From: Lysobacter antibioticus
GTDB lineage: Bacteria; Pseudomonadota; Gammaproteobacteria; Xanthomonadales; Xanthomonadaceae
Assembly (NCBI RefSeq): GCF_001442535.1
Contig: NZ_CP013141.1
Location: 1,346,372-1,410,371, forward strand
Reading direction: 5' to 3'
Length of the DNA stretch: 64,000 bases
The notes under the pieces are model-generated. The model worked only from the letters and a program-made list of their open reading frames with translations, made no database searches and was not told the DNA's origin. Shown in pieces: positions 34,499 to 35,587 of this stretch (the stretch's first letter is position 1; the number at the start of each line of letters is the position of its first letter). Made by a program: the position numbers and the translations under genes.

Positions 34499-34581
34499 GT
34501 AGGAGCGGCGTCCTACTGGATTTCCTTTGGTCACAAGCCGCGACCGCGTTACGACGGTCTTGCGGCGCATCGCTCAAGCAA

Positions 34582-34676
34582 GATCAGGATCAGGATCAGG
34601 ATCAGGATCAGGATCAGGATCAGGATCAGGATCAGGATCAGGATCAGGATCAGGATCAGGATCAGGATCAGGATCA
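34582..34676. repeat. GATCAG hexanucleotide array, about 16 units
   Basis: An uninterrupted run of 95 bp. The homologous site in element copy B (about 52407-52419) holds only two GATCAA units, so this array has expanded (or contracted there). Confidence 0.95.
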
Positions 34677-35030
34677 AACGCTAAAAGCTTCCGCCACTAA
34701 AGCGGCGGGTTACTTTCTTTTGTCTAAAGCAACAAAAGAAAGGTAACCAAAGAAAAATGCTTTGTTTTGAATCAAGGGCCCGCACGAGCGGTGCATACGC
34801 AGGGCTTTTTCATACGGGACATCCTTGTCCCGATGAAAAACAGCGCGCATCCCTGCGCGCCGCCCTCCGGGTCTTCGATTGCCTTCGCGAGTGCGGAACG
34901 GCGCACAGCAACCACAACGCTGCTTCGGGGTAGGAGCGGCGCAAGCCGCGACCGCGATCCGCGGCTGTCGGCGCGAGTGATCGTGGATGCTTGGTCGCGG
35001 CTCACGCCGCTCCTCCAGTGGTAGATCAAC

Positions 35031-35084
35031 GTTGCCGTTGCCGTTGCCGTTGCCGTTGCCGTTGCCGTTGCCGTTGCCGTTGCC
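35031..35084. repeat. GTTGCC hexanucleotide array, 9 units
   Basis: Nine perfect units in the middle of element copy A. Copy B has an array of the same unit and the same count at 52780-52833. Confidence 0.95.
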
Positions 35085-35308
35085 GAGATTTTGATCTGCT
35101 TTGCCGCCTTACCGGTCAAGTGGAGACCCGGAGGGCGCCGCACAGGACGTGCGGCGTTTTCCGATAAGACAGGGACGTCTTATCGGAAAATCCCGGCGCG
35201 AGCTGCGTGCTCGCAGGGGAGCTTCGTCAAGGAGAGCCCTTTTCTTTGGTTACCTTTCTTTTGGGCTTAGCAAAAGAAAGTAACCCGGCCGCGTCAGCGG
35301 ACGGAAGC

Positions 35309-35587
35309 CGTAGATGTTGCTTCATCGCTCTGCGGCAAGAAACGTCGCCACGGCAAGCAGCACGGTCGCGGCTCGCGCCGCTCCCACCCCCGCGCCGGCA
35401 AGCATTTCATTGACGCGGCATCGGCGTTGCGATCACTGCGCGTCCCGCGGTCGCGACTCTCGTCGCTCCTACAACTAACCTACGCAGTGACATCGCAAGA
35501 TCGAGGCGACGCGGTCGGCTGGCGCCGTTCCTGCCCTGCAGCAACCGGAATGACCCCACGCCGGTAACCGCACACAGTGGTCAACCC
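35309..35587. other. Flank of element copy A up to recD
   Basis: This stretch holds reverse-orientation copies of the GTAGGAGCGGCG/GCCGCGACC palindrome at about 35364-35388 and a degenerate one at about 35449-35473. No gene or terminator for recD is evident. Confidence 0.5.

Follow-up and report, generated by a model that had tools for sequence, protein, structure and literature searches.

The window analysed here, 64,000 nucleotides of the Lysobacter antibioticus genome, contains two large imperfect palindromes, at 34499-35388 and 52349-53160. What is the unit behind these structures, how widely does it occur, and would it act as DNA, as RNA or simply as a mobile passenger?

The window elements as inverted pairs of units

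In both elements the two halves are inverted relatives of each other, at the places where an earlier note on this DNA had put them. In element 1, 34733-34761 pairs with 35235-35263 at 93% and 34706-34722 with 35271-35287 at 100%. Each of these "giant palindromes" is an inverted pair of units of about 230 bp, and the natural unit is one arm, see Table 1. The arms also fold on themselves, as the earlier note had proposed: z is -5.86 for 34680-34913 and -5.23 for 35087-35315 (minus strand), and in each case none of 200 dinucleotide shuffles is as stable. With DNA parameters, the folding z is -5.95.

The hexanucleotide arrays described in the same note are real. The outer palindromic ends (GTAGGAGCGGC...), which it had counted as part of the element, are GTAG-type REP elements and lie outside the unit. 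The 85-bp units said to neighbour the elements are found beside element 2 and not beside element 1; they form an amplified REP array with one GTAG-type REP per 85-bp unit.

Table 1. Units, unit parts and accompanying repeats of the two elements (window coordinates; for units and their parts the strand is that of F, see text)
Feature	Position	Strand	Basis or remark
Unit X1 (subfamily X, element 1)	34680-34913	minus	nhmmer/classification
X1, model R2 match	34707-34868	minus	113.0 bits
X1 hairpin IV, GGA loop AGGGAT	34843-34860	minus	covariation helix 1
X1 hairpin III, GGA loop ACAAGGATGT	34806-34840	minus	covariation helices 2 and 3
X1 pseudoknot strand S2a, AAGCA	34758-34762	minus	covariation helix 4
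X1 pyrimidine loop L	34749-34757	minus	predicted third strand of triple helix
X1 pseudoknot strand S1a	34733-34748	minus	covariation helix 5
X1 pseudoknot strand S2b, TGCTT	34727-34731	minus	
X1 pseudoknot purine strand S1b	34708-34722	minus	
Element 1 central spacer	34914-35086		REP pair 34926-34953 / 34993-35014 and hexanucleotide array 35030-35085
Unit Y1 (subfamily Y, element 1)	35087-35315	plus	nhmmer/classification
Y1, model R2 match	35130-35286	plus	135.1 bits
Y1 hairpin IV, GGA loop	35136-35156	plus	
Y1 hairpin III, GGA loop AGGGAC	35157-35190	plus	
Y1 strand S2a, AGCCC	35235-35239	plus	
Y1 pyrimidine loop L	35240-35247	plus	predicted third strand
Y1 strand S1a	35248-35263	plus	
Y1 strand S2b	35263-35268	plus	first G common with S1a end
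Y1 purine strand S1b	35271-35285	plus	
Hexanucleotide array GATCAG	34582-34676		15.8 copies, outer side of X1
Unit X2 (element 2)	52423-52656	minus	R2 match 52450-52611, minus, 116.2 bits
X2 hairpins	IV 52585-52604, III 52549-52583	minus	
X2 pseudoknot	S2a 52501-52505, L 52492-52500, S1a 52476-52491, S2b 52470-52474, S1b 52451-52465	minus	
Element 2 central spacer	52657-52835		REP and hexanucleotide arrays 52650-52688, 52779-52835
Unit Y2 (element 2)	52836-53090	plus	R2 match 52879-53061, plus, 101.8 bits
Y2 parts	hairpin IV 52886-52904, hairpin III 52906-52939, S2a 52983-52989, L 52990-52997	plus	
Y2 S1 region	52998-53060	plus	broken by ~22-nt insert around 53007-53029
Tandem array, 4.3 x 85 bp	52009-52375	plus	GTAG-type REPs, separate repeat class, beside element 2

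Copies, pairing and genomic placement

BLAST with element 1 gives at least 240 matches in the 5.77-Mb L. antibioticus genome, with the best 40 of 360 candidates scored, and a 15-base core with up to two mismatches gives 199 + 188 matches vs 2 + 6 for a reversed control. A broad covariance model, R2, matches all 150 scored candidates; there are therefore 150 units or more, and the description as a two-copy element does not stand. The two copies 18 kb apart in the window could by themselves come from a chance palindrome that was recently duplicated once, and locally. This reading is rejected by the copy number and by the distribution, as copies occur across this genome and relatives are found in 66 of 398 sampled genomes, and we give it no weight.

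The unit is present in all 18 same-genus relatives searched. Model R1 finds it in 32 of 151 genomes at the level of the order, in 55 of 369 at that of the class and in 21 of the 398 in the phylum sample, all 21 of them in the Gammaproteobacteria. The 66 genomes are matches of R2, 59 in the same class (L. antibioticus included) and seven in one family of another class; these phylum-scan counts are lower bounds with few candidates scored per genome, and the E-values are rough. Members of that other family, f217 (G564, G597, G691, G707, G716, G779 and G791), have R2 E-values from 6e-8 to 9e-4, and either transfer or an older origin is possible. Among the matches listed in a pattern scan, the carriers include Dyella, Dokdonella, Lysobacter, Stenotrophobium, Sulfuriferula, a Burkholderiales MAG, and Pseudomonas of the mendocina, oleovorans and alcaligenes kind. 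Binning errors may account for two further MAGs, which are assigned to distant phyla (Desulfobulbus, Eremiobacteraeota). The named genomes, which were picked for having matches, hold 4 to 67 R2 units each. Carriage by plasmids or phages was rejected, as the 641-bp L. antibioticus sequence is unmatched among 72,556 plasmid records and 50,697 phage records, in a sequence search that would overlook distant relatives.

A profile of the four arms recovers 85 full units, in the window and in 38 other stretches of the genome. They belong to two subfamilies, X (45 units, mean identity 0.92) and Y (40 units, 0.84), with an identity of 0.67 between the subfamilies, and form 41 clusters, 32 of them simple pairs. 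As many as 43 of 44 adjacent pairs are inverted, and 42 of the 43 inverted pairs combine one X with one Y. The strand that we read as RNA, F, is the reverse complement of the orientation first aligned. By this strand, 26 pairs are F-in, with gaps mostly of 33 or 40 bp, and 17 pairs, including both window elements, are F-out, with a median gap of 126 bp. The linker lengths 33 (11/26) and 40 (7/26) recur, with near-identical sequence. That the X and Y of one pair evolve together can be rejected, as their distances within pairs are uncorrelated (Mantel r -0.03, p 0.62 for 26 pairs; r 0.06, p 0.29 for 16).

The 78 loci of the named genomes contain 37 adjacent pairs, of which 34 are inverted; these are all F-out, with a median gap of 188 bp. 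Two different subfamilies per pair are also seen, by eye, in some other families (L112, L118, L120), and several pairs have a hexamer-like spacer at their centre (L188, L193, L196). The architecture of the window elements is therefore general. At L194 5525-5691, in a Pseudomonas genome, the central gap of a pair is bounded by a 21-bp inverted repeat (by eye), so the conserved unit may reach further 5' on F than R2.

None of the 41 L. antibioticus clusters is overlapped by an ORF called with a simple GC-based caller rather than a gene finder, in line with the earlier observation that the elements carry no transposase. The neighbouring genes are convergent at 22 of the 41 clusters vs 12 of 79 background gaps (Fisher p 2.8e-5) and divergent at 2 of 41, or 1 of 41 in another count, vs 16 of 79 (Fisher p 0.03). 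At 39-40 of the clusters at least one neighbouring gene points toward the cluster. In the named genomes, convergent neighbours are found at 18 of 44 clusters vs 15 of 161 background gaps (Fisher p 4e-6) and divergent ones at 1 of 44 vs 40 of 161 (Fisher p 4e-4); of the 83 named clusters, five were overlapped by an ORF call, and for 34 no gene was called on one of the two sides. The named-genome table keeps 120 of 202 rows, those above about 42 bits, and the remainder are mostly S1-only matches on the other strand.

The orthologous sites of each window element were examined in 11 relatives. Element 1 lies in 1333 bp between gene ends in L. antibioticus, and 10 of the 11 relatives have no unit in the stretch beside the orthologous gene. 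In six of these ten the flanks are 245-328 bp apart; two have other sequence of about 1.09 kb between the flanks, and the remaining two give no match to the far flank. For element 2, which lies in 1318 bp between gene ends, both flanks are found in nine of the 11 relatives and no unit is present between them in any; the flanks are separated by 44 bp in G004, by 64 bp in G008, and by 481 to 1370 bp in the remaining seven. The two exceptions are G010, with a unit at a distance of about 740 bp from the gene end, and G011, where the far flank is unmatched. Copies have therefore been gained or lost between species. Of the check for empty sites and target-site duplications that the earlier note had proposed, the first part yields sites without the element, while no target-site duplication or exact element end is readable at these sites, the intergenic flanks being too diverged. 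The non-autonomous mobile element that the note had offered as one option gains support from the dispersed copies and from these element-free sites.

Two further observations concern the site of element 1. In G010 the intergenic region orthologous to it contains a single unit (L154), and this points to a preferred site or to the loss of one arm. In other relatives, the orthologous stretches L144, L147 and L148 contain a different dispersed palindrome, CCCCCCTTT..AAAGGGGGG, together with hexamers resembling GCTGTTGCTGTTGC; hexamer arrays thus accompany more than one repeat class.

Hairpins, pseudoknot and third strand of the F strand

On F, the order of the parts is hairpin IV, hairpin III, a variable middle, S2a, L, S1a, a loop with S2b, and S1b. 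S2 is formed with the loop of S1, and the fold is therefore an H-type pseudoknot. In 26 cores from L. antibioticus, 98.2% of the cells are paired and 77 cells show double changes. The alignment A5 of 54 diverse units, with a 41-pair structure including the pseudoknot, has 89.8% of 2202 cells paired and 421 double-change cells over 35 of the 41 pairs, and most of the relatives in this structure set were found with model R1, built from L. antibioticus units, so that they are not a blind sample. None of 500 shuffles is as good, and slid controls reach at most 110 double-change cells and 49% paired. The two crossing helices of the pseudoknot (4 and 5) are supported by covariation. Of 68 distinct units, 62 have an S2 helix of no fewer than 4 bp (shuffle mean 30.2, max 40), in a parse that leaves out 25 of 170 units, 15 from L. 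antibioticus with an insert in S1 and 10 others. By comparison of sequences, the structure and the dispersal of the unit are well supported.

The insert of about 22 nt, GGATTYCCTTYGGTCA, breaks S1 in 15 of the 85 L. antibioticus units and is also found inside GTAG REPs; in the window it occurs at 34411, 34518 and 53007. It looks like a tiny insert targeting hairpins, and similar inserts occur in the relatives L101 and L088.

The pyrimidine loop L is the mirror image of S1a, not a copy of it. It is complementary in parallel to S1b, starting from the stem top; in an H-type pseudoknot, loop 1 would take this course, along the deep groove of stem 2. L changes in step with the S1b variants AAAAGAAA, AAAGAAAA, AAGAGAAA, AAAGAGAA, AAGAAAAA and GAGAGAAA. 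The top seven third-strand layers are perfect in 64 of 68 distinct units (500 shuffles: mean 17.2, max 29), and in the named genomes in 26 of 28 (null mean 6.9, max 15), a set from which 10 of 92 units were dropped and whose loci were fetched by a pattern fixing part of S2a, so that its S2 count carries little weight. Over all triple cells, 398 of 428 are compatible (1000 shuffles: mean 327, max 360), and the third-strand shuffles ignore the relatedness of units. Column by column, T.A switches to C.G in step, and these are the two pyrimidine-motif triples. From this the pyrimidine loop is predicted to be the parallel Hoogsteen partner of the purine strand, in a triple helix of U.A-U and C+.G-C layers. 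Hairpin-copying repair would produce inverted repeats, but neither a parallel third strand nor a crossing helix. The option of a structured RNA locus, also offered by the earlier note, gains support from the covarying structure with its pseudoknot and third strand, because a plain DNA palindrome would need neither.

By one fixed rule there are 2.0 GGA-loop hairpins per unit (170 in 85, 160 in 80 and 129 in 65 units), vs 0.077 in mono-shuffles and 0.004 on the other strand. When all 64 loop triplets are ranked, GGA comes first and AGG next at 0.95. Because most units were found with the own-unit model, the test was repeated on 74 sites found by the pseudoknot pattern alone. These have a mean of 1.66 GGA hairpins vs 0.062 in 740 random windows taken from the same loci, with at least one in 64 sites, at least two in 51 and none in 10. 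In A5, the loop of hairpin III is mostly CA(N)GGATG and that of hairpin IV ANGGAY, with CGA or GAA in a few. The CsrA consensus is ACARGGAUGU. The hairpin loops fit the form preferred by CsrA/RsmA and are putative binding sites, and the L. antibioticus genome has two CsrA homologues.

Which strand would be the RNA is not secure. In favour of F are the CsrA-type loops and the pyrimidine-motif triple, for which the other strand would give an unusual purine motif. Stem wobbles favour it mildly, with 69 G.U vs 53 A.C, or 68 vs 29 without two loop-closing columns. F also has the advantage in raw RNAfold energy in all 85 L. antibioticus units and in 64 of 80 others. This is because of composition, and folding energy was rejected as a basis for strand choice as the advantage is gone against shuffles (mean z -6.18 v -6.18; -7.05 v -7.10). 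Single units in the named genomes show no preference for the strand of the upstream gene (10 with, 10 against). No conserved promoter or intrinsic terminator was found on F; a sigma-70-like site is absent from the two loci scanned, and terminator-like sites are near chance (4 vs 1.7, sd 1.4; 4 vs 1.9, sd 1.7).

Known systems, rival explanations and meaning

Rfam has no match in the window at the gathering threshold. In nine loci, with E up to 0.5, there are six matches, all sub-threshold: on the F strand of three units RsmW twice and TwoAYGGAY once, all in CL00106, and besides them isrK, CRISPR-DR4 and SorX, elsewhere or on the other strand. Searches of the open-licence PMC literature found no description of the unit family, which agrees with the earlier statement that no named family has this architecture. 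Several dispersed non-coding repeats of Pseudomonas fluorescens, R0, R1, R2, R6, R178 and R200, are described as MITE-like and 80-350 bp long, several with inverted repeats and with tens to hundreds of copies, R200 being 320 bp with 47 copies in SBW25 (PMC2718517). Compared by description only, they resemble the units here in dispersal and size. The family is large and apparently unnamed, with R178 and R200 compared in this way only.

In lifestyle the units resemble REP/BIME elements, the RAYT-associated GTAG super-family, which are also intergenic, high-copy, palindromic, alternating in clusters and split into species-specific subfamilies. REP/BIME elements are given as 20-40 bp (PMC3733652), while the units here have about 230 bp, no GTAG tag, a pseudoknot with a third strand, and two paired subfamilies. 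The element is BIME-like in its dispersal and alternation and fails the REP definition by size, tag and RAYT link. True GTAG REPs adjoin the elements and even lie inside them; the linkers (33-40 bp) of the F-in pairs at L050, L065 and L069 contain REPs that look like insertions into the larger element. The L. antibioticus genome has three Y1_Tnp (RAYT) genes; the stretches of 6.0 kb and 5.0 kb that surround them contain no unit, and RAYT as the mover of the units is rejected as this association is absent. One of the genes (L073 1704-2730, genome 2783204-2784230) lies among GTAGGAGCGGC REPs and is likely the mover of the REPs, but not of the units. A second copy (L032) has an in-frame TAG.

CsrB/C-type sRNAs are single-gene RNAs with their own promoter and terminator. 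The CsrA/RsmA-sequestering sRNAs (CsrB/C, RsmX/Y/Z/W; CL00106) are like the unit in having paired GGA-loop hairpins, which suit the CsrA dimer (PMC4333381). Unlike them, the unit is a dispersed repeat with two GGA hairpins and a pseudoknot, and its Rfam scores are below gathering. TwoAYGGAY (RF01731) consists of two hairpins with AYGGAY loops; Gardner and colleagues proposed that it and Bacillaceae-1 bind CsrA, on the same grounds of loop form, and pointed out that hairpins of this type occur in pairs (PMC4333381). It scores 34.4 bits vs a cut-off of 43 in one of the nine loci scanned, and in the account of it given there no triple-helix pseudoknot is described, unlike in the unit (PMC4333381).

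Triple helices were also compared. Their pseudoknot forms occur in telomerase RNA and the SAM-II riboswitch, and stability elements with a triple helix in ENE and MALAT1; in these, a U-rich loop runs parallel to the purine strand within the major groove of a long stem. The units share, in prediction, the U.A-U and C+.G-C layers and the parallel third strand. They differ in being predicted for bacteria, in having many dispersed copies per genome, and in lying beside CsrA-type hairpins.

The comparisons of sites and of aligned units establish two things: a family with many copies, inverted pairing, intergenic positions with a convergent excess and orthologous sites without the element; and an F strand on which an H-type pseudoknot, its third strand covarying, comes after two hairpins with GGA loops. 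A selfish non-autonomous element, whose hairpins and pseudoknot are recognised by a transposase or reverse transcriptase acting in trans and which brings the host no benefit, would explain the dispersed copies, the subfamilies, the element-free orthologous sites and the purely intergenic placement in L. antibioticus without coding sequence. A precedent exists in REPs, thought to be mobilised by the single-strand transposases RAYT/TnpA-REP (PMC2817692, PMC8266576). However, the three Y1_Tnp stretches hold no unit, one gene sitting among GTAG REPs instead, in a search for the mover that covered Y1 transposases only; target-site duplications are not readable; and recognition by a transposase leaves the class-wide GGA loops and the pyrimidine-motif third strand unexplained. 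We regard this as somewhat unlikely.

The convergent context could also point to a REP-like element of mRNA 3' ends, a bidirectional terminator or decay barrier between convergent genes in which the GGA loops are incidental. In the genus Lysobacter a GC hairpin on the F strand precedes GTTTTTC, and the pseudoknot would be a strong 3' barrier. Yet the T run is absent in many other genomes, terminator-like sites are not clearly above chance, and GGA is the most kept loop triplet; such an element is unlikely. An intrinsic terminator as the conserved function was rejected, with a T run not kept beyond the genus and scans near chance. A role at the DNA level, with a cruciform and H-DNA from the pyrimidine mirror repeat serving replication, recombination or chromosome organisation, would suit the perfect palindromes, the H-DNA-like mirror repeat of L and S1a, and a folding strength equal on both strands. 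It is very improbable, as the S2 helix crossing S1 covaries (helix 4), wobble asymmetry and CsrA-type loops indicate RNA, and the mirror arms have only about 8 bp. The third option of the earlier note, a chromosome-organising site, gains no support from these results.

The explanation we favour, at a little under an even chance, is that the dispersed element enters read-through transcripts, mostly at the 3' ends of genes, as a CsrA-docking and exonuclease-resistant RNA module. Transcripts of the flanking genes would read through the pair and make the module, and because the units are inverted, transcription from either side yields one F unit. Its two hairpins would dock a CsrA/RsmA dimer, and the docked copies together could form a dispersed sponge for CsrA, a mark for it in 3' UTRs, or both. 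REPs and triple-helix stability elements protect RNA against 3' exonucleases. In the same manner, the triple-helix pseudoknot, on the 3' side, may protect the upstream RNA. We further suggest, as a possible but doubtful proposition, a new class of bacterial RNA: a mobile inverted-pair cassette with a bidentate CsrA/RsmA site and a triple-helix pseudoknot of about eight layers. If true, a cassette in 3' UTRs, with tens to more than 100 copies per genome, wires CsrA control to many genes, bacteria have a natural and abundant triple-helix RNA, and the inverted pair of two subfamilies gives one functional RNA whichever strand is transcribed, without the pair forming a long perfect palindrome.

Read modestly, the analysis delimits an unrecognised repeat family by a covariance model and by the strict rule of inverted pairing, and its mobility is open to testing at orthologous sites that differ in the presence of the element. 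If the RNA reading holds, what appears as genomic clutter would be a portable post-transcriptional module in many Gammaproteobacteria, bacteria would gain a rare example of a triple helix in the one predicted here, and CsrA, a global regulator, would be titrated by dozens to hundreds of dispersed sites, beyond a few sRNA genes.
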